From Sialis fuliginosa (taxonomy: Eukaryota; Arthropoda; Insecta; Megaloptera; Sialidae), in NCBI GenBank assembly GCA_961205875.1, contig OY540812.1, positions 24,189,098-24,253,097 on the forward strand: a DNA stretch of 64,000 bases, written 5' to 3'. The notes below the pieces were generated by a model. It saw only the letters and a list, made by a program, of their open reading frames with translations. It was not told the DNA's origin and did no database searches. Of this stretch, positions 18,956 to 63,505 are shown one piece after another. The position numbers were made by a program, and so were the translations under genes. Position 1 is the stretch's first letter, and every line of letters starts with the position of its first letter.

Positions 18956-19222
18956 ATGTCTGAAGTAAAACCCAAAGGCCGTAAGAGACGGCTAGCGGCG
19001 TTCGGTGATTGCGTGTTCTCTTTAGTGGTGGTCGCTCCGTGCGTGGTGGGACACTGGCGAGGCTCATGGAGTATCATGGATATGCATCCGCACGTGTTCC
19101 CGGCTCTGGAACTGTTCATGTTTTGCGGCACCCTCCACAGCGCGTTCACGCTACTTAGGGAGCATTTCTTGAAGGCTTTACCGGGTAGTGACAGCGGCTG
19201 GTGGAAGAAACTGTTAGCAGGT
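18956..19222 (+). CDS. fusl: fuseless-like exon 1 (start codon)
   Basis: ATG at 18956 is preceded by an in-frame TAA at 18941, so this is a plausible true start. A TTTCTAG acceptor just upstream (ending 18937) suggests a separate 5' UTR exon. The N-terminus is basic (KPKGRKRR), then a hydrophobic segment at about residues 19-32, the HWRGSW motif at residues 33-38 and a second hydrophobic stretch at about 48-66. The donor GGT|GTTAGT at 19222/19223 keeps phase 0 with exon 2. CAG|GTGTTA, two bases earlier, looks plausible but breaks the frame. Together with exon 2 it forms module 1 of the three-module protein. Confidence 0.8.
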
Positions 19223-22200
19223 GTTAGTAGACTTTAATGTTATAAAAGTAAGACTTCGTTAATCTAGACTGGTTGGCGATGACATGTATTAATTGAATAC
19301 ATCAATCCTTCGTTTAACAACTTCAAGAATACGTTACCGAATTAAAAAATATGTAGATATTTATATAATTTATATTAATATCAAATACATTTGATTCTTA
19401 AGATTTTTTTGTACCATATATAAGTACGTTGACAGAGATTAAGATATAATCTTTCTATGATTAGTCTAAAGATTGTACCATATATTAATGTACTGTGTGA
19501 AACGGAAATTTTAATTTTAATGAGTTTTTTTTAAGATTTTCAGTATTTATCGTGTTATGAAAGGGGCACATGCAATTACTGCTTTGAGTCCCTTGCTGGT
19601 GATATTTGTTTTAAGTACAGATTAATTTATTTTTGTTTATTTACTATACGAAAGTTTCCACAACTCATTCAGAAAATGTCGCTTTTCTGGAAAAGGTAAC
19701 CGAGACAGGATTTTTGCCTTTGTCGATTCAAATACTGATGATGCCCGTTTTCACCAATCAACGTTACCAATCTGTTTGTGTTAACTGATCATTTTTGGCG
19801 ATATGAACTGTATACTTATAAATATTTTAAATTTTTACCTGCGACCTTAATTTGATTGTACAGTTAAAATATTTTTTGTTTTATTTTTTTGAAGTTTTAT
19901 ATTGAAATATTATAAAATATTTAAGCTCCCAACTAACTCATTGCGCCACTGAACAAATTACAACTTTATATCCTTACATATTATAAAACGCAATGTCTGT
20001 CTGTCCGTTAGTACGCTTATCACTTGAAACCCACTTATCTCATTTATGATTTTTTTTTTTTTTTTTAATTCTTGCCTATGTTTTAGTATATATTTTGTTA
20101 GGTTTGGTAATATAAGGAATAAGCAGTGATGATAATAGTAAATCAAATTCGAAAAAAGTTTGCCGTCAGCGCGCTCATTTGCGATACGCTGCCTAAACCG
20201 TTAATTATAAAAAATAAAAAGATCTAAAAGAAACTCCATGATACCATATATCTAACTTTTATATTTAAGCAAGCGAAGCCACGGGCACAGCTAGAAAAAA
20301 CTATATTAACTATAGTAAACTATACATTGTCGGGTTACTGCAAAACCCAGATAACTCCACTATTTACATTTTTTTAGTTAAGTACATTTCTAAACTTAAA
20401 AATTTTACCTACGTCTACTGTAAAAACATGATAAATCTCTTATAGATATAAAGGGTCGATACGCATGTGCAAAAATAAGGTAAAGTCCACTTTGACCAAA
20501 ATTTAACCAATTAGAACCAGATATCTGAGAAATTATAAAATGTGACTTATATATATTATATATTAATATTAAAATCAAAAATTCAAGAGGGAGAGAAAAT
20601 TTGTAGGCTCGTATCTTGATCAAGTCCTTTATTTTTGCAGATACTTAAACGGTTGTACACGTATCTTTTCGCTTGGTGTTGCGTGGGCCACTGGCGTGCT
20701 GGTTGGGAACTGCTGGATAGTGCCGGAACCAATAAAAGAGTTATCGGTGTTGCTGTGATGTGCTTCATCTTCCTGGTTTACTTCAATTGCATAAGGAATC
20801 TGTTGGCCGTGCCATTCCTCCTCTGTAGAGATGACAATGATGTACATTTTACTTATCCGACAAGATTTAGAACAGAGGTCAGTATTTACATTGTAACCAT
20901 TAATAATGTCGATACTCGGGTTCTTAATGCAAATAGCGTTGTTATGGTCGTCAGTTTGGTTAACAATGTGCGAAAAAGCGATTATAATAACATTGTAAAT
21001 TATAAAAGTACAAAATATAAATAGATTCTCACAAAAAATGCCAAATTTCTAGTAAAAAATATATTTTTTTGTTATTTCTCGTTTGTAAATTTTGTTGTAA
21101 CATTTTTTAATAATGTATAAAATTAATGTAGTTTTTTAATTGTTGTAAATTCACTAAAGAAAATATAAAAGCAAAATGTAAATAGTAATTTTCAAATACA
21201 CCAACCAACGTAGTTTAGTATAATTTATTTATGTATTAATTATTATATTATCATAGCAACTGCTTTACATTCTTTGAAATTTGACGATTCTTTCTTTTAT
21301 ATCTTTTGTGTCGTAGTACTTATCATTTTGTAATCATTAGCAAGTGTTCATCACGGCGTGATCATTACTGGTTTTACTTTATCCATTACTGGAGAAAAAA
21401 CATAAACAAAATAAGAAGCTATAATTTAAAAAATAAACAATATTTGCGGACTTTGGTAATTAAATTGATTAAATAAAGAGTTAGTTGTTTTATTAGTAAC
21501 ATGAGTTCATGAGAATTACAAAAAACAAGTCCATTAATCCAAAAAAAACGAAAACTTGTTCTTATAGCGGCTATAACTGGTGCCTTTACCTTATATACAT
21601 TTCCTTAAAAATTGGACGACAAGATGTCCTTGTTGTATCGTATTTGATGTTGATTTTTGACATTTCTATGCCAAAAGCTAGAAACAACGAGTTAATAATT
21701 TGCAGTGGCGAATTATCGTACAGGCGTAGGAGGCATTCACGTCGAACCCACAACCTCAGGGTTCTCCAAACCGACAAAAAGTTGATATTGTTTCATTTTA
21801 AAGCTATAATTCACATTACATAGTTTCGGGTTCTCGATTCAAAAATTTTGTGTTTTAATAAATTTTTTTAATGCATAATCTGCCACTTTTAGGACACATT
21901 ACCCTATTATAGATAACATACACATAAAACTATAAAATATATAAAGCAAAATATCATCACTAGAATATTGTCACCTACAAAGATTAAGAGCACATTTATT
22001 TATATTTATATCTACGTTATATGAACAAATGGTTTAGGAAAATTACTGAAATCTGTATCAAATTTTACCGACTTTGACGGAAGATAGTATACATAAGTAC
22101 CTAGTGTATGTTTGTACATAATAATATTTATTAAAGATACGGAGTTAATTGATATATTATATATTATTTATTTACTAAACATCTGTTCAGACCGATGTGA

Positions 22201-25200
22201 TAGAAAACGATATAGTTTATGTTTTTTTTTAGTCACTTTTATTTATTTTATGTAGGTATTTAGGATTGTTGCCAATATATTATTAAATATGTATAGGTAT
22301 ACATATATATGTATATATATATGTAAGTACAAGTTATTACATTTGTTAAGAGAATCAGCTGTTACATATCATCATTTATCATTATACATGTAGGGGTAGA
22401 GGGGGTCAGATGTGACGAGGGAGTAAGACTAGAATTTTTAATAATAATTTTAAACAGTTTTTTTCTCAGGAATTTTAGGAAATCAAAAAATAGTATACAT
22501 AACATTTAACTGCATTAGCATATGTATATATTATTTACTTTTAATTTAAATAAAGTTTATTTTTTACAATTGTTTGGTTATGCTAGCAAAAAAAATTAAA
22601 TGACAGAAAAAATTACCAAAAAAAGTTTGCTTCAATGGAACAAATTGAATCAGAATACAATACAGACATTGCAATTGAGATTGTTGGACTCGAAGAATTA
22701 GTAGCGCATCTAGAAAAATAACACTGGTCAACACTAGTCATGCCACACGAACTCTCATAGCTAATATTGTTTTAGTCACCTACCCTCATTAATAAATTGC
22801 AGTAGTTTTGTTTCGATTGGCCTCAAATTTTTTGTGATGTGTTGATAAGCATAATCTGTACTAGGGCAATAAACGTAAGTAAACGGACGCGAATAAATAG
22901 ACATAAAATTAATTATTTTTGTATTAATTCAAATTTAGTGCTTTATAAGTAATTGTTGAGATTGTGTAAATATGTCGAGAAAGTGTAATAACGATCCGGA
23001 TTCATTTTGTTATATTTGTGGTGATTTAACTTTCAAAAAACAAAGACGAAATTTTACTACACTTGTGTTAGAGAGTTATCGCCAGTATTTTGGTTTCTCT
23101 GTGGCTCATCAAGACAAATCTTGGGCCCCTCATATTTGTTGCATAACTTGTGTAAAGAATTTAACTGATTGGAAGAAAGGCCGCCGCCATATGCCGTTTG
23201 CGGTACCCATGATTTGGACCGAACCAAGAGATCACGTTTCGGATTGTTATTTCTGTCTTATAGATATAAAAGGTATTAATTTTAAGAAAAAACACATGGT
23301 CAGTTACCCTAATTTACAGTCAACTAAAAGACCAGTACTTCATAGTGACAATTTACCTATACCAGTTGTACCTGCGGCCGTTGAGATTCAAAATTCACAA
23401 CAGCCTTCCACTTCGAGCGAGTCGCGGAGCGGTGATGATGACGATGACTGTGAGTTTAAAGAAATTCCAGTCAAACCACATTTCATAACTCAAGAAGACT
23501 TAAACGACTTGGTTCGCGACTTGAATTTGTCAAAAAAGCAATCAGAACTCTTAGGATCTCGATTAAAACAATGGAAAGGTTCCATCAGGACATTTCACAG
23601 ATGGAAACACGTTATAAGGGCAAATGGAACCCAAGGATGTTGGCTGATTACTGCTGGACGATAAAAAGGGACCAACCAGAAGCTAAATATGCCAGAAAAT
23701 CTTAAATTGGACATTCATAATAGGACGTTTTTGCTTTTTTGTATCAGGAATTCACTATTTTTTTAAATATTGAAATTATATCAATAAATAAAATTCTTGG
23801 CCAATAGATTTTTTTTAATTACATATTTTCACTAACAGTCACCCAACAAAGTAAAAAATATAAGTGAAGTCCGTGTGGCGCGACAAAGTTCAATTGGCAA
23901 AAGTTATATACTTACTTAATTAATTCAAAGAGAAAAACAAAACCGATGCAATCAAATAACGTACATACTTACAACATTAAAAAGTGAATAAACTTGTAAG
24001 AAGCGATGTAATAACAATGAATTAAAAAAAACAGTAAAGCGTCATGAACGATCAGACATAGTAATTTATTTAATATTTTGTAAACATTTATTGCTGTGAT
24101 ATATGATGATTTTTATTTCATTTTTTTTCTAGAAATATGTCAATAAGAAGTACATTTTTTAACTACATAAAATTTATGTACATATTTCTTACACAAGCAT
24201 GTGTATCTCTTTTATAAATATTCCGTAAGTTTCCGTATATTTACCATTGATGTCCGGTATGATAAAGGACCTAACAAATTTGTTAGCTAACAAACACTTT
24301 CAACTGAGGTATCAAACATATATGACAGTTCTTTTGGAGTTTGTTGATGACTTTGACAAGTTTCGCGCACGCGTTGAAGGTAAATACAAACGGTATTAAA
24401 ACAGTGGTGATGTTATGAAAATTATTTTGTACGGTCAAAGATGCCAACTGTGTTACAATTAATTGAAGTGTCACTGCTCTAAATTCCATAACTAATCCAT
24501 AGATACTAGTACAGTATTAATACCCCATATGAATGTAATTGCTAGCTAACAAATTTTGTTAAGTCCTTTATAATACCGGGCATGAATATTATTGTCTATT
24601 ATCAACATCTATAAATAAAATGCAAATATGTGTAATACTAATGCAGTAATTGCAATATTTGCGTAGTATTAAAAAATAATTGTTTTATTAAGTTATCATA
24701 ATATATTCTCAATTGATTTAAATATATTAATTTAAATCTACTGCTTATTTTAACACAAATATCAAAGTGTTATAGATTATAGATTATAACCTAATTGATT
24801 TTCATTTCATTTAAAACTATCAAACATGGAAATCAATAATTTATTACCTTAAGAATAATACTGTGACGAAATATTATTTTGTATATAAAAATAAATAACT
24901 AAAATAATGTTTACATATGTATGTTTTTATTTCATATATTAACGTCACTATATTATATTTATTATGTGCATTTATTGCTGTAAATTCAGTGAACTTTAAT
25001 GGAAAATTTGTTAGAATACATTGCATTTGAATTTATATTAAAATATATTTTCAATGGAAAAATGGTATTTTATATACCGAATTAGTCATATCAGATGGAA
25101 CAAACTTGAACAGTCGATCGAGAAAAATATTTCAAGTTCATATAAATTAACATGTGTCCTGAAATTCTTCGTGAGCTAGAGATCCCCAAAGATTTAGCTT

Positions 25201-43200: not shown

Positions 43201-45389
43201 CAAACTCCATTATTCCGAAAACAATTTTTAAAGTACAAAACTTCATTTATCGTGTAAACGTTAAGATCTGGTTTTATATTTCGACTCGGGTACATATTTA
43301 ATGGGGGCTTAGTAAAATAAATTTCTACACAATATACCAACTTCTTCTCTTCACGTGAAAACATCCAACATCAACAAAAAATCCATCCACAGACACATTT
43401 GGAACAGATGATCGTACCGGACAAGCAGCGCACGCTATACCTGGTGATGTCGAGGATATACACAGCTATGTATGGGTTCGCGTGTGTCAACTCGTGGCGG
43501 GGTGCGTGGCTGTTACTGGACGTGTACACGGAGCTGGACGTGGGAACCGTGACCGCGACCACTGCCGTCAGCGTCATTGCCTTAGCGGCCATGCGTAGCC
43601 TGAGGAACGTTTCCGCGCCGCCGTTTGTAGTCGTTATTGATATCGATCAAGGATACTTCGAGGTGCCGACTATGTTTAGAGTACCGGTAAGGATATGGAT
43701 GAGCATGTATTGGGTGAATAAAAATAATTGTGGTTTTAGTATATTTCCATAACTATAATTATATAAACTTGTATTTAAATGTTTATTAAAAATTGATAAT
43801 ATAGCAGGGCTTCGAACCGAAAACCGGAAAAACCGTTATTTTTGCCGGAACGAAAACCGGAACCGAACCGAAATATATTTTTTTACTCGAACCGGAACGA
43901 AAACCGAAACGAAAAAAATAACGGTTCGAAGCCCTGTAATATAGCATTCAAATAAATCAATTTTTAATCACAATTAATAAACTATTAAATTTTTAAACTT
44001 ATTATTTTTGAGTTTTGTCCCACTTTAATATCACTTGACGTTTCGACCAACATCTCGTGGTCTTCTCCAGAGGTAAAGTGTCGAGTCCAGAAGATGTAAC
44101 TGCTGGACTCGGCACTTCACATCTGAAGGAAACCACAATATGTTGGTAGAAACGTTAAGTGATATTAAAATAAGACGCGGGAATAAACCCAAAAATAATA
44201 AATTTAAAAAATACAACAATCGTGAAACTCTACGTTAAAAAAAATATAATTTTATTTATTTAAATATATTTTATATTTATATTATTAAATCTCTCTATCA
44301 ATATTGGGAAATCAAACTTATCAAATTCGTATTATTTACACTTTTTATGGAAAGTCTATTTAATATTTATACTAAAGTCTTAAATTCAGAGGTTATTTTA
44401 AGGAAATTTTAGAACTGCACAATTTAAGGCAAAGCAAATAAAACAAAAATTTCAATAATAAGAAAAGAGCTTTCGTAGATACAATTGAATGACCTTTTTT
44501 CGGTATTTCAATTTAAAACAAAATTTCAATTGCAAATTGTTGCACGTTTATCTTTGTGTACTGCACAAAATAAGTTTTAAAACTGCACATTTCAATTTTA
44601 GAGCTGCACAAACAATCTAAACTGCACACTTAAATTCATCCAAAAAAACAATAATCAAGTAGTTGAAAAATTTAAATAGTTGTTAAAATTTAAATAATTA
44701 CCAATTTTTTGCTTTACTTTACTGTTAGAGCTGTATAATACTACACTACAAAATAAACATTGTTTGAAGAAACTCTATCACTGAAAAGAAGACTTTATTT
44801 TTATTGAACTATATTTAATTCGTTTGACTAAAATAAAATGTAATACATACTGAACCTATACTTTACTATTGATCACTATCACTTTTTCATTTGAGCTACA
44901 GCTACACATGTGTATAGAAAAAGTTCACGTTGAAGATTAAACTATAGAAATAATGTAGATTTTATCATTTAAACGTTTTAAAAAAATAATTTTATGTGAT
45001 GTAGAAAAATGTTCACATGTAAAATTGATTCAAGTTTGTACAATGCTCATTTCGGCTACAAATTAAAGAACATTGTAGATACATGTGCAAACGTTAATGT
45101 TTAACAAATAAAGAGATGTAGGTACAAAGTACCTAACTAAAAAACAATTAACATTAAATATAATATAAATGATTGGAAACATTTATATTAGATACGAGTA
45201 GAACTAATAATTCTAGTGTAGTTATATTATATCATACTATTAGAAACTGGAAAGACTATGGTTTCTTAGTCACTTAAACTAAAATATAATTTAACCACTC
45301 GGCACGTGTTTCGATTTCACACGAATTCCTCATCAGGAGCCTAATATGTATGAACAGTATAATAGTTGATTATTATTTATATACTATAT

Positions 45390-45424
<35 letters not shown>

Positions 45425-48400
45425 TCTTTATTCGTAAACTCATTACATAGAGTATTGAACGTGTCATAGAAAAAAACAAAACATAATTACCTATATATAT
45501 GAAAAAACAAAAAACAATAAATAATAATAATATAAATAATATTAATAAAAGTAAAGAATAAGGCAAAACGGAAAAGAGAAGAGAAAAAAGAACAGAGAAA
45601 AAAAAAAGAACATTCATTCTACTAAACTAATATCTAACATATTATATATGTATCTAAGTTAAATTTCACTTACAAAATATTCTTGTATGCTGTAGTAGCA
45701 TCGATCCAACAAGAATGACTTCAATTCTTTAACAAATTTGTTAATAGGTAGCAGCTTCAGATCTTTTGGCAATTTATTATAAATTTTAATGGCATAATTC
45801 AAAGGCCCTTTGAATACTGTAGCCAAGGATGTAGCAGATTGGACATAATCATCTTTATTTCTTGTATTGTATTCATGAACGTGCACATTTTTATTGAATA
45901 AGTCTGATTCCTTCTTCACAAAAGTTGAACATTCTAATATATACAGCCCTGTTAACGTAAGTACTCCTAGTTGTTTGAAAAGTGGTCGACAAGGTTCATT
46001 AGGACTCTTTCCACAGATAATTCGTACACATCTTTTTATATAGGGTTGTATATACAGAGCAATTTCTTCGACATATTTAAAAATGTATTTCTACTAGATC
46101 GAGTCCTTTGTTGACAAGCAATTGATAAAAAAATAATATCTTTATAATACTTAATTGATATACAAAAAAATCAGCCAGCTAATATTTATTACTTAAATCA
46201 ATTAATATATTCCTATTTCTTGATACATTTAATCTAAATAATTACTTTGTATAATATCATTATTATTTATATTTAATAATAAATATGTTTAATAAATTGT
46301 ATTATATTTACCGACGATTTAATAATCCGGAAAACATTTTTCGTTGACCTAGATCTCAAAAGAAAAAAAGTATGAATAAGATCATGCAGAAACTTTAAAA
46401 ATAATAATGAAAAATATTGAAGTGAACTATGATTTACAAACAGACAAGATAAAGTTCTCCGAGGTCATTATTTCTTTCTTTATGCAATATTCAATATTGT
46501 CACTAACAAAGATAGTATTTTGTTTTGTATTTAAGTATACAGTCACGTGTAGTAAAGCAAATAATAATAGTTTAATAAAATATTTTATTGTAAAACTTAA
46601 GTATTCTTATCTAGTACGACTTAAGGGGGAGCCATTTTATTTATTTCCAGTTCGGGGCTAGCTTGTTTCTAACTTATCTGTTCATTCGGTTTCGTAAGAC
46701 CCACTTATAGTAAGTACGTATTTATTTTTTTGTTTGAGTAATATTAAATTAAATTAATAATAATTTAAATTAAACATTTTCTCGTGCTACTCCACAGGTT
46801 CAATGATTTTTAATGCCTCATAAATATACCCTATTTATTTTTCTTATTTTTACTATATACATACATATGTAAGTAACATACTTAATCTGGAAAAAGTTTA
46901 ATTTGGTAAATAATTGTTAGTTACTAAAATCCATACATAAATATGTTCTGTAGACCTGCTTGTAATACTTATATGATAAATTTTAATAAATAATATATTT
47001 TATATAACAAATACATAATGAAACAAGTATTTCAGCATTTCCCAAGGGGGTGGAAAAGTTTGTATGAGATTTTTTTTTTGTTTGTATTCACTCGAATGAA
47101 ACTTGGCACATATATTCTACAAGACAAATAGCAATTTAGAAAATTCAACCCTGAAGGGTTGGGTAGAGCGGGGGGATTAATTATAAACTTTTTAAATTTT
47201 GATATATTTATCTACATAACTGTTCATAATATCAATGTCAATTGGGACAAAATAATATTCAATTAAAATAAAAATTTCGACATTCAACCACAATAGTGTA
47301 AGAGGGGAACGAGGGTGGGTTTTTGATATGTTTATCTACATAATCACTTTAGTTATATAGGTAAATTCGGGCAAAATAGTTATCTATTAAAATAAATATT
47401 CCGACATTCAACCTCTAAGTCGCGGGTAGAATGGGGGTGGGTTTTTGTAATTTTTAACTAAGATCCGACATATTTACGATTTTTTATAGGTGATGAATAA
47501 TCAAAAAGAATAATTTAATATTTCATCCCCTGTCACGTATGGAGGTTTGTAATTACATTCATCGATCCGGCGGGAAAAAAACTTCAGGGGAGGGGGTTTT
47601 AGGGGGGAAACGCATTAAGGAGCCGAGATATTTACGATTGTGCATAATGAATGAAAAACAAAAAAATAATAATTTAATATTTCATCCCATGTCTTAAAAT
47701 ATTATGTGTGCTACCAACATAAAAAAAATATACAACGCGAGCGAAGCCGCGGGAAATTCCGTTGTACGAAAGTGCCCAACCAAAAAATTTAAAAATGGTG
47801 ACTAATTCGAAGTACTTTTTATTCTTTGAAAATTTTTCTAAAAGTAGACCCTTCAGGAGATAAAAATAAAAATAAATAAAAACATAAAATTATTTATTAA
47901 ACATAAAATGTTTCGATTCCCTCAGGAGCAGAAATTATTGATTGCGACCATTACAACTTTTGATCAGCAAAAAAAAAATTCACCAAAAGGTAAAATTCAT
48001 TGCATTTCTGTGGGATCATTTCGTTTGCTCTACTGTTAAACCGCCTCGCGGACATTGGTTTATTAACAAAAAATTATTGTTTTGATATACTCTACAACTT
48101 CTGAAAGTTTGTCGATATAATAAATTGTTTTGTTGAAGTTAGTCGCTGTTGCTTCTAATGAATCATACATTATTTATATAAATATGTATGCATGTATAAT
48201 ATTAATTAATTTATATGTTAATACGATGACGACTAATATTTTATGTTCTTCATAACGAAAAAATTAATTTCAAAACAGTTTTCACGTGACAAGTAAATAC
48301 ATGTGAATCTCATTACTTTACAATCATGTTGTCTTTGATAAACGGACAATCCAGCTTACGAGTGAATGTTATCAGTATATAAGTAAATAAATATAAAACA

Positions 48401-51400
48401 TAAATATTGCAATTCAATGACATTAACATTACGAGCATAAGTATTATAATCTTTATAAACAACACAGATGAAATTTATTTACACATTTAAAAAAAATGCG
48501 TGTTTCAATAGCAATGCTGTCCCCTTCAGAATTAATATATACAAATGTACATTATGTAGGTATGTATGTACAAATACATATATTATGTTACATTAATTGA
48601 AACTTGTAAATGCAGGTGCGTATTTAGGAAAGGCACTGGGGGTTCCCTATAAAAATTTTGATTGTTTTAATTTAAGAAATTATTCGGCTGAGGCTATATT
48701 GCGGTTTTGACTTCAACTTTTTTTTTGGCCTGCCATCTTCGATGATTTAGCCATGCTTCAATATTTTACTGTTAACAAAACATCATTATGTTTGCGACAT
48801 TTGTTGCGTTTGTTCTGTTCCCACCTGAAAATAGCGAGCAAATGATTTCTTTTGGTCAAATACAATTTACCGGCAAGCTTGGAGAATGTTTGGCGTGTTT
48901 GTTCTATTCGGAGAATAATTATAAAAAATGTATTGGATGAAGACAATCCTTGTTTAATATATATCAAAAACAATATTTTCTTAACGCATTAGAATATAAT
49001 TTTAATCCAACTACATATATTATTACTCTTCTTTAAAAAGAAAACAATAAATTCTCTGTTTTAAACAACAAAAGTTTTATGCGTGTAGCGGAATAATACT
49101 TTGTACACTCACGGTTCTTTTGGAGTAAAATATTCAAATCAAGACGCACCATAAAAATGAAACTATTACCACTAGAGCTTCTTAAACTTTTTTTTAACTG
49201 CCCACACCACTTAAATTATTAAAATGTGTTCTAGCATCCCCAGTACAAAAATCTAATTTTGTACCATTATCCATATTATGTGAAATAATGGAATCGTCGT
49301 TTATTTAATGAATATTAACATATATGTATTAACATATATGTATGTATATATGTACATACAATGAACATATGACACCAGAAACCAGTTTATTTTACTATGT
49401 GTTATTATAAATTTTAATAACAATAAAAATAGTATACATGCATTCATGCATACATATTTATATATATTTATTTATTTATTTATTGGTGGATTGATGGATT
49501 GAGTGATTGGTTGATTGAATGATTGATTGATTGATTTATTGATTTTTTTATTTACTCACTTATTTATTTATTTCCTATCAAATTGCATATTCATTAACAG
49601 AGTGATCTAATATAATCTAACTATTTGTAAGAACACTAATTAATAAACAAAATGAAGATTGAGTACCTACGTGTACATTTTAACATAAGGTAAATCAAAC
49701 AAGGTAATCTTAAAATAATTTTAAAACTACAATATAAATATTAATCACAAATTTTTAATTACGATCTTTGAATGTAATTTTTGTTGTAAACATTTTTTTA
49801 TAATATTTACAGTGTTATTTAGAATTATAATTACAATATGATAATTAATTTATATTTGTTATCATGTCTCCTAGCCTCCTGAGATTCTTCTTGCACCTCA
49901 AAATTACTGCACTAGAGCGTACTGATAAATACCGATTGACAATGTTTTATCATAATATTAAATGTTTGGTTAAAAATTTGGTCGGTGACTGCGATATGTA
50001 TAGTATGAATAAAAAGTAATTTTTTACCATCCGCTGATAGTTCGCTCTGTGTTGGTGATGGTTTGTAACAGAGGTGTTATCCGATTCTAAAATCTTATCA
50101 GAAATAATTTCATATCCGAATCTGAAATTGAATCCGAAACCGAAAAAAATATCCCTATCCGTAACTGATATTTATGTCAGTACCCTAAGAACTCTAGTAT
50201 TTATAGTTGTAATTAACTTTTAATTAACATTATCGAATTCAAATTTTGTATATAGTTAGAGGGGGTCATGGCTAGTAAGAAAAAAATATTTTAGCTGCGG
50301 TTAAACGGTTTAAGGGGGTGAAATATCCCTATAAAAATGTGCAAAATAATCGTATATTTAACTCTGAAACTAATGAAGATATAAAACAATTTATTTTCGA
50401 GGAAATCGTGTTTTTATAAACATACTAATAAATTTTTTTATATTTTATTGGTAAATACATAATAAAGTATCTATTTAATTTGTTTTGTTTTCTCAAGAGT
50501 TTTCCATTTAGCTTCATAACGGTTCACTAAAAATTGAAATTACCAGGTTTGAAAACTTCTGTTTGTTTCAGAGTACTCGACATAACACCGTGCTGTATCT
50601 ACTGGATTGCTTGTTCTCCGTTTTCATTATCGGCAGTCTCGTCGTGTTCGTATGGCGAGGATTCTGGGTAATGATTGACCTGTTCCTCTTCCCAGAAAAA
50701 GAAAATTATTCAGCTGTAGGGAGTCTTGTAAGTAATCCTGTAATATATATGCATTTTTATATTATACTATATATGCGAAGATATTTTTTTATGATTAACT
50801 GAAAAAGAAAGAAAATGTCTAACTGGAAAAATGTATAACAGTTATGTATTACATGCGTTATTACATGTATGTCGGTTTTGTATAAATCCTAATGTTTCCT
50901 ATCCATGAGTGTAGCCAGGTTGGGGCTGGTTAGGTTTTTGGGCAAAAAATAATAAGTAAATTAATCTATTGGCTAAACAAAAATATTTCTAGGTAAAATG
51001 TCCATTTGATTTTAAACGTAAATCTATATTTTGGATCCCGAAAGAACGTCATTTTTTTAATTGCAATTAATTTTGTCTTACATAAAACAAAAAATGTTAG
51101 TTTTTAGACATTTCAATAATATATTTTTCGAATTATCTTATAGACCAGTTAAATTATATCGATTTATTACCTAAAATAGAAAAAAATAGAATGAATGAAA
51201 TTCACCAAAATCGATAACTATAGTTGAAGAATTTTGTCTTCTATAAGTTACATAAAAATTTATTTCAAAGAAAAATGAATATGTGAACGATTTTTTCGTT
51301 GTTATTTTTTGCACGCCTGTAAAATAAACTAGGTTATCGAGTTGATAAAAAAAACGCGCATTTTCATGAACTTAAGTTACAACGTTATAACCGCGTAACA

Positions 51401-60400: not shown

Positions 60401-63400
60401 TTTGACACGACTCTGTTTTCGAGTCAGATGCGCGGTCCATGCTCTATATCTATGATAATAATAAATGATTGTTTCATAAATACATATAAATTTACTAAGA
60501 ATTTATAGAGATAATACTTATAACCTCTTAAAGAAGGATTAATTCTTTAATTGTAAATAATTGATTGATAAAATCAAATAAATTTATAAATAAATATAAT
60601 TACATGTTATTGTTGATATCATGTATATAAAACTTGATATAAAACATTTTAAATGAGTAATTAAAAAGTCAAAGTACTAAAATGTTTGAATGTGACTCTA
60701 GATATGATTTTACGTAGTAATTTTCTTTGGAAATCTGTATACAATGAAACATATTATATAAAGTACATATATTTATATACATGCACTTTATTTTATATGC
60801 GAAGATTAATTATTAATTACTTTTGTAAATACCCTTACTGAGTGACTATTTATTTTATTAAATACATCATTTTTATCTGTCTTCATTTATATTTTCTAAT
60901 TTTAGTAGGTTACTAAAAATACCAAAATTACAAAAAGTAAATAAAGTAATAAAATTTATATTTTTAGAAATAAGCTTATTATATTAAAAGGAGTTTGAAC
61001 CGGAACTGAACCGAAAACCGGAAAAATCGTTATTTTTGTAGGAACGAAAACCGGAACCTAACCGACATGTATTGTTTAACTTGAATGAAATGATAATTTT
61101 TAGTAAAAATCTAAAATTCGAAAAAATACTAGGTATCTACTTAAAAAAATATAAAACTATTTTGTATTAATAAATTCATACATATACGAACCAAACCGCA
61201 AACCGATAATCAAAAATCACAAATTTAACCGAACCGAAGTATTGGAAATGGTTCGAAATTCATTATTAAAAATATTAAAATTGTGTACATTAGTTATATT
61301 TATATTTACTGTTACTAATTTTCTACATAGTTTTATTCAAACCCCGTTAAAAAATCCCAAATTGTAGTAAAAGTTAACCCGCTAGAACTATATGGACTGC
61401 GAACCAAAAGTGAACTGAAATTTTCAGCGGGCAGCTTCTCCTATCAACTAAAATAATAGGTAATAAAAACTTTTTTTAAATGTTCTTATTTTAACCCACC
61501 GCAACATTAAATTATATTATTAGCTTTGTTCAGGACCGGCACTAGGGATTCAGATAGTGTATGAAAAATTCAAATTGCCGCTTTTTTTCCATACTTTTGC
61601 GCCCCTGATATTTTTTTGTTGTCATTACGATTAAATAAATTTACTTTTGCGCTCTCTTTCTTTTATTTTATTCCTCATATCACTTTTTACTTAATCCTGA
61701 TAATGCTATTCTCATGCATTTTATATAAATTTCGCCGCCTTCGGTAATTGGCACCTGCGTAAAAATCACTCATCGTACCCGGCTTCCTCCGGCCCTGAGT
61801 TTATGTAAATTAAAGATATATGAATGTTGATAAAATTAAAAAATCATTTTTTCAAAAAAATTTTAAATATGTAAATTTCTGCAATAATAGGTACATAACA
61901 ATTATAATTTAACTAAGTATAATAAATAAAAATATTACTTATATTATTTTTTAAGTAGTTTTTATTCAAGTTTTTTAAACATTTTCTTTCTTTTTAAAAT
62001 GTGTTCGCAAAGACTGAAATTTTAAAGTTGGAGCCCAATTAAAAAACTCCGGCTCCAAAGCCCTACTGTATGAAAAATATAATTAACATATATTCTTTTG
62101 TAGATTATAGGATATGCAATAACAATATTAGCGTTTACGGTACAGCCGAGGGTTCGGAAATTATGCGACCGTATAACCGGTTTCTGGAGAGTCTTCGTCG
62201 CTGATATCTTTTTACTCTTCTCCTTTGTGGGAACAATCAACGTCTGGAGAGGGATCTGGAACGTACTGAATGTTTTCTATTTACCAAGTAAGTGAACAAT
62301 TAAGTTTTTACTCCATTCATTGCTTGCTTGAATTAGGACACGGGCTCTTCTAAAAATGTTAGCAGCACATTCTCGTCGGCAGTGATAATAGATTTAATTA
62401 TTACATCATCACAACTACCGTCGATTTTTTTATTTTTACATTTACATTATTATTGTAAAAAACAAAACAATTGTAATATTTATAATTATTCAATATATAT
62501 ATATTTTTTATATTTCTTATAATGTTTTTATTGAAAAGTATCAAATGTAAATTTTCCATAATGCAGGCCTGTGAAATAAATTATCTCTTTATGAAAGGAA
62601 ATTTTATTCTTCTACCTGTTCACGCTAATCTCAAAATCTACTAAACCAATTTTAATGCGATTTTAAGATCAAATTCTTGGCTTCTGGGTGTAAGTCGCGT
62701 CGATTTGGTAATGTTTTCGGCCAACGTTTCGTCACACATTGCAGTGGACATCTTCAAGGCTCTTCTAAAAGTGCAACTTTAGTGCACTTTTAGAATTGCA
62801 ATCGTGCGTTTCCATATAATTGCATGTTATTTAATTAACACCCAATACGTAATCACTAGGAGCTACGTGGTCGTTGTGCAGTGGTTCGTCTGAGTTAGGC
62901 CTTAGTCCCATCAAAATTGGTGTAGCAGATATCGTGTCAAGTCGAAAGAAGCAGACAGATACAATTTATAAAAATACTATCAAAAAAATCTTTTTACAGA
63001 AAGAGCCTATATATTTTATATATTAGTATTGATATTTTCTCTTTGTAAAAATTAACGACCTATTGTAAAGCGATTCAATATACTTATGGAAAATTCAAGT
63101 AACATCCACTTAATCATACATATTATATTCAACTCGTTCATCGTTTCAGACGACCCTGAATTGAGCTGCTGGTCAACTCACATCGTGTTCCTGATCATTC
63201 TCTTTCTGCTCAAGTGCGCCAACAGTGTCCTGGTCCGGGGCGTTTATATCGACGCTGAGGAACCGGCTGGTAAGTGCGTAGTCTTCCCCATCTACTACTT
63301 ACGATCGTACTTCCAACACACTAAGATCAAAAGTAGCAGTCATGTGGCGACCATCAAGTTGTCTCCAATACCGGAGGCTGGTCCTATGGTTACCGGGGAA

Positions 63401-63505
63401 GCTAATCACGTTATCGTGCCTTTGATACCGCAAAGTGAAATGAACTTAGAAGACGGAGTTACGAATAAATGTGATGCGAGTGAAAAGAGACTAGAAGAAG
63501 TATAA
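18956..63505 (+). CDS. fusl: fuseless-like multi-pass membrane protein, seven joined exons
   Basis: Joining 18956-19222, 20641-20877, 37700-37885, 43393-43686, 50572-50727, 62104-62287 and 63150-63505 gives one open frame of 559 codons and a TAA stop. All junctions have GT/AG borders. The first five introns are phase 0 and the last is phase 1. The product carries six WR[G/A]xW motifs at residues 34, 107, 192, 265, 356 and 428, each between hydrophobic stretches. This pattern is what I recognise as the Fuseless family. Drosophila Fuseless is a presynaptic multi-pass protein required for calcium-channel localisation and transmitter release. Function here is inferred from family membership. The weakest points are the 5' border of exon 3, the exon 1 donor, and whether a 5' UTR exon precedes exon 1. 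Confidence 0.75.
19223..20640 (+). other. Intron 1
   Basis: This 1.4 kb intron ends in a strong TTTATTTTTGCAG acceptor. It contains a dispersed repeat at about 19969-20297 that starts with TGTCTGTCTGTCCGT and ends with AGCGAAGCCACGGGCACAGC, phrases common to many arthropod repeats. Confidence 0.7.
19969..20297 (+). repeat. Dispersed repeat with GCGAAGCC...GCACAGCTAG end
   Basis: The 5' part carries a TCTG/TCCG run and the 3' part the GCGAAGCCACGGGCACAGC phrase. A similar 3' phrase recurs at about 47738-47760. The class is not certain, and a Helitron-type CTAG end is possible. Confidence 0.4.
20641..20877 (+). CDS. fusl: fuseless-like exon 2
   Basis: The exon encodes residues 90-168. It carries HWRAGW (106-111), the only copy with A in place of the G of WRG, then a hydrophobic helix (about 117-140), the IRNLLAVPF segment and the ending PTRFRTE. 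The equivalent exon 4 has LRNVSAPPF and PTMFRVP at the same places and ends at the homologous codon. The acceptor is TTTTTGCAG and the donor GAG|GTCAGT, both phase 0. The open frame runs past the donor into the intron to 21024, but that tail looks unlike the family and is not counted. Confidence 0.85.
21081..21149 (+). repeat. Direct repeat, copy downstream of exon 2
   Basis: This is the partner of 18543-18607. The shared block runs from TGTAAATTTTGTTGTAACAT to TTTTTTAATTGTTGTAA. Confidence 0.65.
22972..23705 (+). pseudogene. Internally deleted arthropod multicopy zinc-binding protein gene
   Basis: The open frame 22972-23664 begins [17 protein letters not shown] and carries paired cysteines C13/C16 and C57/C60, a second pair C92/C95, an acidic Ser-rich region and the [19 protein letters not shown] block. 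I recognise this as the N-terminal part of an uncharacterised protein family present in many copies in arthropod genomes. At about 23578 the frame runs straight into the family's C-terminal tail, read in another frame: [16 protein letters not shown], then ending EAKYARKS with TAA at 23705. The whole central region is therefore missing and the junction is frameshifted. The gene is intronless here. An AATAAA lies about 80 bp after the stop. It is probably a transposon-derived or transposon-carried copy. Confidence 0.75.
24251..24582. mobile_element. PIF-like MITE with TGTCCGG ends
   Basis: The termini TGTCCGGTATGATAAAGG and, on the complement, TGCCCGGTATTATAAAGG extend into inner repeats containing TTTGTTAGCTA. 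An exact 3-bp duplication TGA flanks both sides. Its length of 332 bp is almost the same as the related element at 52415-52747. Confidence 0.85.
25073..26313. mobile_element. Long-TIR DNA transposon derivative, full-length copy
   Basis: About 200 bp at each end are inverted copies. The left begins near AGTCATATCAGATGGAACAA and the right is its complement near 26295. Both arms contain the GAGCTACAGATCC-like and TTTTTATTTAATATTT blocks. No transposase frame is visible. Partial copies are at 10120-11145, 52915-53740 and 59150-59585. Confidence 0.75.
26377..26515. mobile_element. Short PIF/Harbinger-type MITE
   Basis: The element is 139 bp. Termini TGCGGTGTTCACACC and, on the complement, TGCCGTGTTCAGACC continue through AAAACAAAACAG. 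TAA lies on both sides. Confidence 0.85.
27270..29855. mobile_element. Nested palindromic repeat block with outer TIRs
   Basis: The outer inverted repeats (about 27270-27370 and 29740-29855) share ACTAAAATGAATTGAACAAG. Inside lie two direct copies of a unit of about 330-520 bp (from about 27673 and 28400) and then two inverted copies (about 28720-29210 and 29210-29735). A smaller inverted pair lies at about 27365-27440 and 27590-27665. Several open frames of about 70 codons recur only because the unit recurs. They have no ATG-to-stop conservation that suggests coding. Confidence 0.75.
29894..30593. mobile_element. hAT-type element with CACG-rich ends
   Basis: The termini TATAGAGCTGGGCGCG and, on the complement, TAGAGCTGGGCGCGGGC are flanked by an exact 8-bp duplication GTTGCAAC (29886-29893 and 30594-30601). 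Both ends are filled with variants of CTCACGATCACGC. The 700 bp centre is AT-rich and non-coding. Confidence 0.9.
31142..31228. mobile_element. 87-bp PIF-type MITE
   Basis: Almost the whole element is inverted repeat: AGGCCTCTATACAC at the left and its complement at the right, then CCCAATCTGTAG in both arms. TAA flanks both ends. It is an extreme miniature form. Confidence 0.85.
32015..32880. mobile_element. Inverted-repeat element carrying a tRNA-like arm
   Basis: The outer segments 32015-32083 and about 32786-32880 are inverted copies (GTCCACGAACTCT core). Between them lies an inserted MITE (32088-32443) and a diverged copy of the tRNA-like arm of 5242-6066 (about 32480-32700), with degenerate A and B boxes. 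Confidence 0.55.
32088..32443. mobile_element. TA-flanked MITE nested in a larger element
   Basis: The inverted ends share AATAAGAGCCCGAAAAGTTC and continue into CATCCCCTTTCACGT. TA lies on both sides (32086-32087 and 32444-32445), as for Tc1/mariner insertions. The element is 356 bp and non-coding. Confidence 0.8.
33060..33240. other. GC-richer patch of unknown role
   Basis: This segment stands out from its AT-rich surroundings, is not part of any repeat I could match within the window, and follows a CA-rich tract (33010-33037). It could be a regulatory element or an unseen exon. Confidence 0.35.
33610..34250 (+). repeat. Dispersed repeat C, copy 1
   Basis: It is colinear with 57360-57850: blocks such as CCAAAGGTAGTTAATTATTG, CACGTAACATGT and TGGGACCGTCCTC occur in the same order. 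The 3' end shares the AAACGATCACAAAG motif with the long-TIR family. Confidence 0.7.
34800..36027. mobile_element. hAT-type element, TGGGCGTAGCCAGG ends
   Basis: The termini CATGGGCGTAGCCAGG are inverted at the two ends, followed by G-rich and C-rich runs. The exact 8-bp duplication GTGATATT lies at 34792-34799 and 36028-36035. The 1228 bp interior has no intact transposase. A related fragment is at 50903-51080. Confidence 0.9.
36552..36967. mobile_element. hAT-type MITE rich in GAACC motifs
   Basis: The ends CAGGGACTTGAACC and, on the complement, CAGTGACTTGAACC are flanked by the exact 8-bp duplication ATTTTAAA (36544-36551, 36968-36975). Much of the outer sequence is built from GAACCCGAA/GAACCTGAA variants, echoing the terminal repeat. 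Confidence 0.9.
37643..37699 (+). other. Possible alternative 5' coding segment of exon 3
   Basis: An ATG at 37643 in a good insect start context (CAAAATG) is in frame with exon 3 and would add [19 protein letters not shown]. It could be the start of a shorter isoform from an internal promoter, or part of the exon under a different splice. Phase 0 with exon 2 instead requires the acceptor CAG|TAT at 37699/37700. Confidence 0.4.
37700..37885 (+). CDS. fusl: fuseless-like exon 3
   Basis: The exon encodes about residues 169-230. A hydrophobic helix (174-190) leads into YWRGTW (191-196), then YVYPED and a second hydrophobic stretch [15 protein letters not shown]. It is the first half of module 2 and is very close to exon 1 (VVAPCVVG shared). 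In module 3 the equivalent sequence is split between exons 5 and 6 exactly at SL|IIG, which supports all three calls. The donor is CAG|GTGCTG, phase 0. The acceptor has a poor pyrimidine tract, so the 5' edge is the least certain border of the gene. The open frame continues to 37963, past the donor. Confidence 0.75.
38647..38790. repeat. Small inverted repeat around a 90-bp loop
   Basis: ACATACCCCGGCCTCCCTTC...AACGA at the left pairs with its complement at about 38762-38787. The ends GCGAAGAT/ATCTTCGC lie just outside or inside the arms. It is probably a remnant MITE. Confidence 0.55.
40046..40872. mobile_element. Near-perfect foldback element, TA target site
   Basis: Two arms of about 305 bp (40046-40350 and 40566-40872) are almost identical in inverted orientation. 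They begin GGGTGTGCCAAAAAAATC and are flanked by TA on both sides. Because of the palindrome, the same 84-codon open frame appears on both strands. It starts with GTG and has no independent support as a gene. The low divergence between the arms suggests a young insertion or ongoing conversion. Confidence 0.9.
42496..42930. mobile_element. Diverged foldback related to 880-1427
   Basis: The left end AGTAACACTGCTCAATTGTC resembles AGTAACACTACCCAACTGTA of the element at 880. Inner arms with GATGTACTACGTGTGTGC are inverted at about 42535-42570 and 42870-42905. The outer right arm is too diverged to define the end. Confidence 0.6.
43029..43098 (-). repeat. Short dispersed repeat, inverted copy of 13455-13520
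   Basis: GTCCATTGCTGAATAAAGAT and the following GGGTAGAGTAGACTTGTCTC match the 13455-13520 sequence on the opposite strand. The family is unknown. Confidence 0.6.
43393..43686 (+). CDS. fusl: fuseless-like exon 4
   Basis: The exon encodes residues 231-328. It opens [12 protein letters not shown], then a helix, the SWRGAW motif (264-269), [11 protein letters not shown], another hydrophobic helix and LRNVSAPPF. It ends PTMFRVP. It is the second half of module 2 and aligns along its whole length with exon 2. The acceptor CATCCACAG and donor CCG|GTAAGG are both good and phase 0. The exon is strikingly GC-rich beside the introns. Confidence 0.9.
43805..43936. mobile_element. 132-bp hAT MITE
   Basis: CAGGGCTTCGAACCG at the left and its perfect complement at the right are flanked by an exact 8-bp duplication TAATATAG (43797-43804, 43937-43944). 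The interior is mainly AACCGGAA and AACCGAAA variants. The clean duplication suggests a recent insertion. Confidence 0.95.
44020..44172. mobile_element. Palindromic element with hammerhead-like arms
   Basis: The outer arms TTTAATATCACTTGACGTTTC and their complement (44150-44170) enclose a second inner hairpin (GTGTCGAGTCCAG with CTGGACTCGGCAC). On the minus strand, a GACCA/TGGTC stem (44045-44062) is followed by GAAACGTC. On the plus strand, CTGAAGGA and an ACCA/TGGT stem are followed by GAAACGTT. These are the stem II and GAAAC parts of hammerhead ribozymes found in termini of Penelope-like elements. The CUGAUGA box is imperfect on both strands. Confidence 0.5.
44388..44640 (+). repeat. Dispersed repeat, copy 2
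   Basis: This is the partner of 7843-8052. It contains repeated AACTGCACA motifs. Confidence 0.5.
45301..45336 (-). ncRNA. Hammerhead ribozyme-like motif (Penelope-type terminus)
   Basis: On the minus strand the segment has CTGATGA (45330-45336), a GAATTC-GTGT-GAAATC stem-loop with one mismatch, then GAAAC, followed by ACGTGCC. This gives the conserved CUGAUGA and GAAA boxes around stem II. The expected GUH cleavage triplet reads GCC, so self-cleavage is doubtful. It is likely a relic from the end of a Penelope-like retroelement. Confidence 0.55.
45395..45424. repeat. (TAA)n microsatellite, LINE tail
   Basis: About ten AAT/TAA units directly follow the AATAAAGAATTATT phrase read on the minus strand. 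This is consistent with the 3' tail of the adjoining LINE. Confidence 0.75.
45425..46100 (-). pseudogene. 5'-truncated non-LTR retrotransposon, reverse transcriptase C-terminus
   Basis: Reading the minus strand from about 46100, an open frame encodes [20 protein letters not shown], then [27 protein letters not shown] and [10 protein letters not shown], ending at a stop near 45659. These are the typical closing motifs of LINE (jockey/CR1-type) reverse transcriptases. The 3' UTR follows to the (TAA)n tail. Everything upstream of the thumb region is missing, the usual result of 5'-truncated target-primed insertion. Confidence 0.85.
47050..47770 (+). repeat. Repeat with internal tandem units of about 120-145 bp
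   Basis: Similar blocks, each ending CGACATTCAACC-like, recur at about 47136, 47281 and 47404, with TATTTATCTACATAA inside. The 3' border carries GCGAGCGAAGCCGCGGG, the same phrase type as the repeat ending near 20297. Confidence 0.55.
49455..49572. repeat. TTTA/TTGA tetranucleotide microsatellite
   Basis: TTTA units shade into TTGA units and back to TTTA over about 115 bp, with substitutions. Confidence 0.9.
50572..50727 (+). CDS. fusl: fuseless-like exon 5
   Basis: The exon encodes residues 329-380: [13 protein letters not shown], a hydrophobic helix ([13 protein letters not shown]), VWRGFW (355-360), [11 protein letters not shown] and SAVGSL. It is the first part of module 3 and aligns with the beginning of exon 3. 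The acceptor is TTTGTTTCAG and the donor CTT|GTAAGT, both strong and phase 0. The apparent open frame continues past the donor to 50802, but that tail is intronic. Confidence 0.9.
50903..51080. mobile_element. Fragment of the 34800-36027 hAT family
   Basis: CATGAGTGTAGCCAGG starts the fragment. The following ATTTTGGATCC-containing sequence matches the complement of the right end of the full-length copy. The other end is missing. Confidence 0.6.
52415..52747. mobile_element. PIF-like MITE, full length
   Basis: The termini TGCCCGGTATTATAAAGAAT and, on the complement, TGTCCGGTATTATAAAGAAT are extended by inner inverted repeats of about 60 bp. TAA flanks both sides. It is 333 bp, close to the 332 bp of the relative at 24251-24582. 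A truncated relative lies at 11547. Confidence 0.9.
52915..53740. mobile_element. Long-TIR dispersed element, copy with left end
   Basis: It starts GGATGAGTCATATCAAGTGG and follows the order of 25073-26313 through the TGCCGGCTTT block. The right TIR is not found. Confidence 0.65.
55157..55808 (-). pseudogene. PIF/Harbinger transposase remnant
   Basis: On the minus strand, ATG at 55745 opens [14 protein letters not shown] and runs through a basic stretch to MWCKEWLMN. After a frameshift the sequence reads [12 protein letters not shown], then [20 protein letters not shown], an in-frame stop and TIMREAI. Another frameshift follows to [17 protein letters not shown]. These are the N-terminal landmarks of PIF/Harbinger DDE transposases. 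The catalytic region is absent. Element ends are suggested by GGTGGCTACACAC near 55158 and the complement of GACACCACCACATGG near 55800, but no target duplication was established. Confidence 0.8.
56095..56145. repeat. C-run and transposon-like remnant
   Basis: A run of about 14 C residues is followed by CAGGCTCCGGCGCTCCTGATG, a phrase resembling degraded hAT ends. No boundaries were found. Confidence 0.3.
56740..57274. mobile_element. PIF/Harbinger element with N-terminal coding relic
   Basis: GGCCGGGCGCACATTGAGAC ends are inverted and flanked by TAA (56737-56739 and 57275-57277). The 535 bp interior has an open frame from 56856 ([20 protein letters not shown] then [13 protein letters not shown]) with the acidic-plus-Leu start seen in PIF/Harbinger transposases. 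It soon loses resemblance. The element was probably derived by deletion from an autonomous copy. Confidence 0.85.
57360..57850 (+). repeat. Dispersed repeat C, copy 2
   Basis: This is the partner of 33610-34250. It shares colinear blocks and lacks some internal sequence. Confidence 0.7.
59150..59585. mobile_element. Long-TIR dispersed element, right-half copy
   Basis: It matches the right half of 25073-26313, ending with GTTCCACCTAATATAACTCA. The left half is missing. Confidence 0.65.
60990..61262. mobile_element. Degraded GAACCGAA-rich hAT-like element
   Basis: It is composed of AACCGGAA and AACCGAA variants at both ends, like 43805-43936 and 36552-36967, with an AT-rich centre. The terminal sequence is eroded and no target duplication was identified. 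Confidence 0.5.
61532..61798. mobile_element. hAT-like remnant with CAGGACCGGC ends
   Basis: CAGGACCGGCACTAGGG at the left and the complement of CAGGGCCGGAGGAAGC at the right form short inverted ends. The flanks do not give a clean 8-bp duplication. Confidence 0.5.
62104..62287 (+). CDS. fusl: fuseless-like exon 6
   Basis: The exon encodes residues 381-441: a hydrophobic helix starting IIGYAITIL, a basic loop (RVRKLCDR), a second helix ([13 protein letters not shown]), VWRGIW (427-432) and [11 protein letters not shown] continues the SL of exon 5 just as SLIIG is continuous in exon 3. The acceptor is TTCTTTTGTAG and the donor CCAA|GTAAGT, phase 1. An in-frame TGA lies just past the donor. 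It was not long enough to stand out as an open frame alone. Confidence 0.9.
62288..63149 (+). other. Intron 6
   Basis: The intron is 862 bp. It includes a Penelope-type terminal fragment at about 62680-62770 and a short CTAAAAGTGCA/TGCACTTTTAG hairpin just beyond it (about 62764-62795). Confidence 0.75.
62721..62760 (-). ncRNA. Hammerhead-like motif of a Penelope-type terminus
   Basis: On the minus strand CTTGAAGA is followed by a GTCCAC...GTGTGAC stem with one bulge, then GAAACGTT. This fits stem II and the GAAAC box. The CUGAUGA box is changed to TTGAAGA. A diverged copy is at 7085-7190. It is likely an inactive relic. Confidence 0.4.
63150..63505 (+). CDS. fusl: fuseless-like exon 7 (C-terminus and stop)
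   Basis: The acceptor CGTTTCAG gives phase 1 entry and residue 442 (Asn) is split across the intron. The exon encodes [11 protein letters not shown], a hydrophobic helix (about 453-462), [17 protein letters not shown] and a hydrophilic tail of about 75 residues to TAA at 63503-63505. The [14 protein letters not shown] segment corresponds to the [15 protein letters not shown] and [14 protein letters not shown] segments that close modules 1 and 2. A GTAAGT inside codons AGK (about 63270) could act as an alternative donor, but the frame remains open and family-like beyond it. Confidence 0.9.

Follow-up and report, generated by a model that had tools for sequence, protein, structure and literature searches.

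The window analyzed here is a stretch of 64,000 nucleotides from Sialis fuliginosa (assembly GCA_961205875.1, contig OY540812.1, positions 24,189,098 to 24,253,097 of the forward strand), and its plus strand carries seven exons whose frames all match the Fuseless family of Pfam, PF15993. Taken singly, six of these frames exceed the family cut-off (25 bits), and exon 7 stays just under it with 22.7 bits. A scan of the window located six W-R-[GA]-x-W sites on the plus strand (19055, 20692, 37769, 43495, 50653 and 62245), all in open frames. When the window was simulated 200 times with a first-order Markov model and read in six frames, such sites averaged 0.035 per simulation and never exceeded one. 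In the list below, R1 to R6 are the hairpins in their order along the strand and M1 to M3 the modules (exons 1-2, 3-4 and 5-7), and each PF15993 score is that of the exon frame alone, followed by the profile positions covered.

18956 to 19222, plus strand: exon 1, hairpin R1 with WRGSW at 19055-19069, first half of the extra module M1; 31.1 bits, positions 5-36
20641 to 20877, plus strand: exon 2, hairpin R2 with WRAGW at 20692-20706, second half of M1; 69 bits, positions 74-163
37643 to 37885, plus strand: exon 3, hairpin R3 with WRGTW at 37769-37783; 74.7 bits, positions 2-62
37643 to 37699, plus strand: the 57 nt from the ATG of exon 3 to the acceptor of the earlier model, exon-like in base composition
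43393 to 43686, plus strand: exon 4, hairpin R4 with WRGAW at 43495-43509, and a predicted beta-hairpin; 122.1 bits, positions 60-169
50572 to 50727, plus strand: exon 5, hairpin R5 with WRGFW at 50653-50667, start of module M3; 71.9 bits, positions 149-221
62104 to 62287, plus strand: exon 6, remainder of helix 2 of R5 and helix 1 of R6 with WRGIW at 62245-62259; 79.3 bits, positions 210-271
63150 to 63505, plus strand: exon 7, helix 2 of R6 and the C-terminal tail, stop codon at 63503-63505; 22.7 bits, positions 263-298

Exon 1 and exon 3 each open with an ATG lying three or four codons downstream of an in-frame stop. The GC content rises at the ATG of exon 3, which is likely the first coding exon of a two-module Fuseless. 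The 57 nt that follow this ATG have a GC content of 0.51 versus 0.25 in the 60 nt upstream, and only 2.1% of 2279 non-exonic 57-mers reach 0.51. An earlier gene model of 559 residues contained two uncertain joins, namely the donor of exon 1 (GGT/GTTAGT, with the slash at the junction) and the acceptor inside exon 3 (CCATGCCAG/TAT). Exon 2 ends with PTRFRTE/GTCAGT and exon 4 with PTMFRVP/GTAAGG; both donors are in phase 0 and fall at the same aligned residue, and the acceptor of exon 5, also in phase 0, is compatible with either exon upstream. The acceptor of exon 4 has an alternative candidate at 43408. The three modules differ in where an intron separates the odd from the even hairpin (19222/20641, 37885/43393 and 50727/62104). 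Two introns hold open frames with no Pfam match: one of 234 residues with a cysteine-rich start, mobile-element-like by eye, between exons 2 and 3 (22960-23664, plus strand), and, between exons 4 and 5, one of 143 residues that by eye looks like the end of a reverse transcriptase of the non-LTR type (45659-46090, minus strand).

Modules and internal repeats

Spliced exons 3-7 (M2M3) encode a core protein of 410 residues with two modules, four motifs and eight hydropathy peaks, which matches PF15993 with 399.9 bits (cut-off 25) in a single stretch covering positions 2-298 of 298. Because the match runs from end to end, the known family corresponds to two modules and the window contains its first half twice; compared with PF15993, the window gene adds a diverged copy of that half, exons 1-2. 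The Pfam line on the family makes no mention of four hairpins. The first-pass annotation had described Fuseless as made up of three tandem modules, a description that this match does not support. M1 by itself scores 100.4 bits over positions 5-157, and M3 alone 189.4 bits. Joining exons 1-2 to exons 5-7 (M1M3) gives one complete domain of 293.8 bits over positions 5-298, and the whole three-module protein of 559 residues reaches 490.3 bits in two stretches. A PF15993 search of the 392-Mb genome, with only the best candidates scored, found no further Fuseless locus above the cut-off and no second M3. The one further match in the genome, C8:15285566-15285706, scored 18 bits, below the cut-off of 25, and was taken as a chance match; the surrounding 60 kb contain no W-R-G-x-W.

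The repetition within the gene is well supported. In the rebuilt model (559 residues plus stop), the first tryptophans of the six W-R-[G/A]-x-W motifs stand at residues 34, 107, 192, 265, 356 and 428, and their spacings of 73, 85, 73, 91 and 72 alternate as had been claimed. The module alignments beat all of 1000 shuffles within 8 residues for every pair (M1/M2 scored 213 versus 84 for the best shuffle, M2/M3 147 versus 71, M1/M3 100 versus 61), which bears out internal repetition and conserved module spacing within this gene, and the suggested shared structural element centered on W-R-G-x-W is likewise supported. A segment of 12 residues in exon 7, said to match exons 2 and 4, is recovered in a MAFFT alignment, but the best local alignments end before it. 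The proposed triplication of a two-repeat unit fared worse. Identity is 36% between M1 and M2, 26% between M2 and M3 and 23% between M1 and M3. M1 is therefore closer to M2 than to M3, and the history points to an old two-fold duplication (M2/M3) and a later copy of the first half (M1) rather than one triplication. The repeats are real, but the two-repeat unit is too coarse, as the elementary unit is a single hairpin that occurs free-standing in prokaryotes.

The predicted hairpin and its prokaryote relatives

Sequence and structure prediction together indicate that the repeat unit is a two-helix membrane hairpin, in which helix 1 ends with W-R-G-x-W-x(3)-D and is followed by a short acidic loop and helix 2. 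The core runs in the order odd hairpin, even hairpin with a small beta-hairpin, odd, even, giving four hairpins. At a threshold of our own choosing (19-residue mean >1.1), each two-module form shows eight hydropathy peaks, one before and one after each motif, a hydropathy count and not a measured topology. The fly Fuseless protein has reportedly been described with eight membrane passes. AF2 models of single exons, each from five rows, place helices at residues 17-53 and 59-80 of exon 3 (pLDDT 72) and at residues 10-43 and 50-74 of exon 4, with strands at 78-83 and 87-92 (pLDDT 69); as folds of single exons, these models carry modest confidence. The predicted beta-hairpin after the even hairpin lies at the end of exon 4 (43615-43686, plus strand) and is alignable in exon 2 too. 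The motif reads W-R-G-x-W in five of the six repeats and WRAGW in R2. The residue at +8 from the first Trp is Asp in R1, R2, R4 and R5, Ser in R3 and Asn in R6.

With the alignment of the three window modules alone as query, 2 of 51 pattern matches in genome_contigs (84,980 prokaryote species) were confirmed. The first, in a Woesearchaeota MAG (L020:5016-5213), is a free-standing hairpin of 66 residues scoring 39.1 bits with PF15993, and the second, in a Gracilibacteria MAG (L021:4944-5174), has 77 residues with TGA read as Gly and scores 44.0 bits, both against the cut-off of 25. We take their groups to be DPANN-type archaea and CPR-type bacteria. These two founder hairpins have prokaryote genes as neighbors, for OTCase and a Cdc6-type AAA ATPase at one locus and for an MFS transporter and an ABC ATPase at the other. 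PF15993 scores above its cut-off in 22 of 279 genomes from the phylum of the Woesearchaeota MAG and in 14 of 286 from that of the Gracilibacteria MAG, and at E<=0.01 in 30 and 23 genomes of the same two sets; none of 14 control genomes has a match. A profile designated A6, an alignment of 17 plus-strand loci drawn from these same genome samples, matches 35/279 and 33/286 genomes at E<=1e-4, the weaker ones including variants with other C-terminal parts. In A6 the residues W, R, G, D, S and G do not vary, and each of the 17 members has a PF15993 match at E<=0.01. The InterPro species list of PF15993 may already contain prokaryote members.

The prokaryote proteins share with Fuseless the W-R-G-x-W-x(3)-D pattern, the short acidic loop and a helix 2 with S and G; unlike Fuseless, they consist of one hairpin of about 70 residues and have no long tail. 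Two full hairpins in one prokaryote ORF were not found among the ORFs listed. The small W-R-G-x-W protein (L020, L021 and L022-L065) is scattered across the two phyla, mostly with one match per genome and with neighbors that are not conserved. Among ORFs of at least 80 residues in loci of mostly 3 kb, the largest group of shared neighbors beyond the hairpin covers 4 of 41 loci, and some groups are duplicate loci, so the neighborhoods provide no operon clue. A variant of the hairpin, LFWRGVWMVAD or similar (YRGIW in L067), is present at L066:1483, L067:1492 and L070:1456; its C-terminal part is longer and coiled-coil-like by eye, and it matches both profiles weakly. At L051:1318 and in L052, open frames of 193 and 159 residues contain the hairpin and then a more polar stretch.

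For the two prokaryote hairpins that were scanned, neither NCBIfam nor PHROGs has a dedicated curated family, and the best PHROGs match of two prokaryote and two window proteins had an E value of 0.26. Two scans of viral_contigs, with 6 and 25 pattern matches, yielded none that was confirmed, and a tblastn search of plasmids and phages with one archaeal protein gave no match. A likeness is seen to SLATT_5 (PF18160, NF033631), a family of two-helix membrane effectors: L020 matches it with E values of 0.0011 in Pfam and 0.0033 in NCBIfam, and L021 with 0.017 in NCBIfam, all below the cut-offs (18.8 versus 29.5 bits for L020 in Pfam, 17 versus 60 in NCBIfam, and 14.6 versus 60 for L021). In PADLOC, RTasSLATT, a defence family with a SLATT part, was the only match, in 2 of 17 members with a best E value of 0.00021. 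A sequence search of the PDB gave a best E value of 1.3 for the module profile and no match for the prokaryote profile. A fold search with the predicted hairpin of exon 3 returned 15 matches, all with E values of 5.9 or worse, a lone helix pair being too simple to tell more.

The relation between the animal and the prokaryote hairpins was evaluated with an HMM built from prokaryote sequences only. It contains 39 rows, one per locus, each matching a seed built from 22 sequences with the motif at E<=1e-12; weaker matches were left out, as were L020 and L021, whose genes are already represented by L023 and L022. Of the 494 window ORFs of at least 40 residues, the six motif exons occupy ranks 1-6, with R3 at 40.6 bits, R5 at 36.1, R4 at 26.0, R6 at 23.2, R1 at 19.6 and R2 at 7.1; the next ORF has 6.7 bits. 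The best of 1206 controls (6 reversed sequences and 1200 shuffled within 8 residues) scored 16.7 bits. R1, R3, R4, R5 and R6 lie above this value and R2 alone lies below it, so that R2 rests on its likeness to R4. On the spliced M2M3 protein, the same HMM identifies four hairpin domains with 120.7 bits in all. When the archaeal protein L024 was compared with the 392-Mb genome, the best four matches were R3 (2.8e-5), R4 (0.008), R1 (0.06) and R5 (0.07); the fifth and last lay elsewhere with E=2, and the R2 and R6 exons were not returned.

That the prokaryote hairpins are unrelated look-alikes, a helix ending in W-R-G-x-W having arisen more than once, has to be weighed against these results. Much of the score sits in the motif, and after masking it only three of the six repeats match; R1, R2 and R4 no longer do. 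Membrane segments with two helices are of simple build, and weak matches to other families occur as well (SLATT_5 with L020, as above, and TssN with L021 at 0.00094, both below cut-offs). Apart from the two founders, every prokaryote gene was collected by means of the animal Pfam profile, a procedure that favors look-alikes. However, R5 and R3 still match motif-free at 3e-5 and 3e-4 (R6 at 0.006), and beyond the motif R3 and R5 share the spaced residues P, S, S and G with the prokaryote proteins, as well as D in R5. Both founders pass the curated Pfam cut-off, and the top matches of one archaeal protein in the entire genome are four Fuseless exons. We consider independent origin very unlikely. 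In a tree of the hairpins (45 rows), for which 70 columns are too few to be decisive, R1, R3 and R5 group weakly, R2 joins R4 well, and R6 stands apart on a long branch. The six repeats are united in 1% of 200 bootstrap trees, and a single origin is neither shown nor contradicted by well-supported branches. Since the same hairpin exists as a separate prokaryote protein of about 70 residues, the sequences support the view that Fuseless is an old, small membrane protein fused in tandem. This single-hairpin relative is a more telling result than the confirmation of the repeats.

The charges of the hairpins allow a prediction of their orientation, the positive-inside rule being used to read topology from charges. 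In 38 of the 39 prokaryote rows (L046, which begins inside the motif, was omitted), the mean number of K+R is 2.05 in the N segment versus 0.21 in the loop; the N segment exceeds the loop in 33 of the 38 rows, equals it in 3 and falls below it in 2. At +8, counted from the first Trp, 36 of the 38 rows have Asp. In the Fuseless core, the four loops contain 0, 0, 1 and 0 K+R and 3, 3, 3 and 2 D+E, and the segments preceding the hairpins contain 2, 2, 2 and 4 K+R. Under the rule, this bias predicts an N-terminus inside the cell and every W-R-G-x-W end outside it. The predicted topology is precise and checkable, with all W-R-G-x-W ends on one face.

Use of exons 1 and 2

Rather than a third module in series, exons 1-2 are probably an alternative 5' half that is joined to exon 5. 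With an alternative promoter, and with exon 2 spliced to exon 5, exons 1-2 would replace exons 3-4, which would yield a second eight-helix form; the matching phase and position of the exon 2 and exon 4 donors and the phase-0 acceptor of exon 5 are consistent with such an exchange. The ATG of exon 3, with its GC step, and the failure to find a second M3 in the genome also speak for it. Both frames of M1 are open. At residues identical in M1 and M2, 18 of 28 fourfold sites differ, suggesting that the M1 protein was kept while silent sites changed, and M1 does not appear to be simply dead. Counting against an alternative half, both candidate acceptors of exon 4 are as pyrimidine-poor (7/16) as the acceptor inside exon 3 that a serial model needs, and the positions of the odd-even intron differ between M1 and M2.

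Two other arrangements were weighed. Exon 2 could be spliced into the acceptor inside exon 3, giving one protein of 559 residues with six hairpins and about twelve helices. The frame is kept at all joins of this model, every module is open and alignable, the Trp-Trp spacing at the M1/M2 join (85) is similar to that at the M2/M3 join (91), and the whole protein collects its 490.3 bits in two stretches of PF15993. However, the family is already complete with two modules, exon 3 starts with an ATG of its own downstream of a stop in the same frame, and the 57 nt that would be discarded look like exon in their composition. The acceptor is a weak point, with 7 of 16 pyrimidines, a content that 74% of the AG sites in the window attain; the pyrimidine argument is itself weak, because both candidate acceptors of exon 4 also have 7/16. 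We regard the serial arrangement as rather unlikely. In the other arrangement, exons 1-2 would form a half-gene of their own, or else a decaying tandem copy of Fuseless without its second half, and would be unjoined to exons 3-7. This would agree with the failure to find a second M3 in the genome and with the change of the R2 motif to WRAGW. It would also agree with the score of M1, whose 100.4 bits, compared with 399.9 for M2M3 and 189.4 for M3, indicate that M1 is more diverged than M2. Against decay stand the open frames and a protein conserved across the 18 of 28 differing fourfold sites, and exon 2 retains a good phase-0 donor at the homologous residue. A half-gene or fading copy seems doubtful to us on this evidence.

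Proposed assembly and possible function

With exons 1-2 taken as an alternative half, we lean, with some confidence, toward a joint reading in which the window holds one Fuseless gene, its product is a four-hairpin fusion of the prokaryote unit, and it works as a single-chain oligomer. In the proposed mechanism, the small prokaryote protein would self-assemble, and Fuseless would be the single-chain version of that assembly, a four-hairpin bundle. The hairpins would pack side by side, all their W-R-G-x-W ends and acidic loops facing outward, and the linkers and the tail would lie in the cytoplasm. The rim of Arg and Asp could then be the functional surface, either the mouth of a pore or a docking site for a membrane partner. 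The idea resembles that of the four-domain calcium and sodium channels, where several subunit copies are fused within a single chain: in both cases, a eukaryote chain would fuse copies of a unit that is single in prokaryotes. The likeness is one of concept only, and unlike those channels, the Fuseless hairpin has two helices per unit and no known pore. Fuseless would illustrate how a multi-pass protein of a eukaryote can be built when a two-helix unit is fused in tandem.

A pore formed by the Fuseless bundle is possible. The more specific proposal, that Fuseless is a pseudo-tetramer ring in the membrane whose four W-R-G-x-W/Asp ends form an outer mouth for the passage or gating of an ion or small solute, with the swap of the first half tuning it, is unlikely in our judgment. 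If it were true, a synaptic regulator would be a repurposed membrane oligomer of archaeal or CPR type. A serious possibility, which we nevertheless rate below probable, is that the conserved element serves as a partner-binding scaffold with no pore, the hairpins acting only as anchors that display the outer acidic loops to a channel or an adhesion protein. The fly protein is reported to be needed for the localization of presynaptic calcium channels, which would suit a scaffold. The hairpin is, however, present in cells without synapses, and its basic role would therefore predate a synaptic partner. The scaffold is also in line with PMC4413985, where Fuseless is cited as acting in synaptic vesicle exocytosis and as concentrated at presynaptic sites of neuromuscular junctions.

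Reduction of Fuseless to a prokaryote hairpin of about 70 residues would make the basic activity testable in vitro on a small protein, and the result could then be read back to the animal protein. In the literature passages that mention 'fuseless', no biochemical activity is given for the protein, and its repeats or prokaryote relatives are not treated. Elsewhere in such passages, 'fuseless' appears in the reference lists of PMC4685582 and PMC10690453, the Fuseless Pfam family is entered in a table of the differential expression section of PMC10484617, and fusl is among the cockroach genes changed in infection in the passage from PMC12752085.
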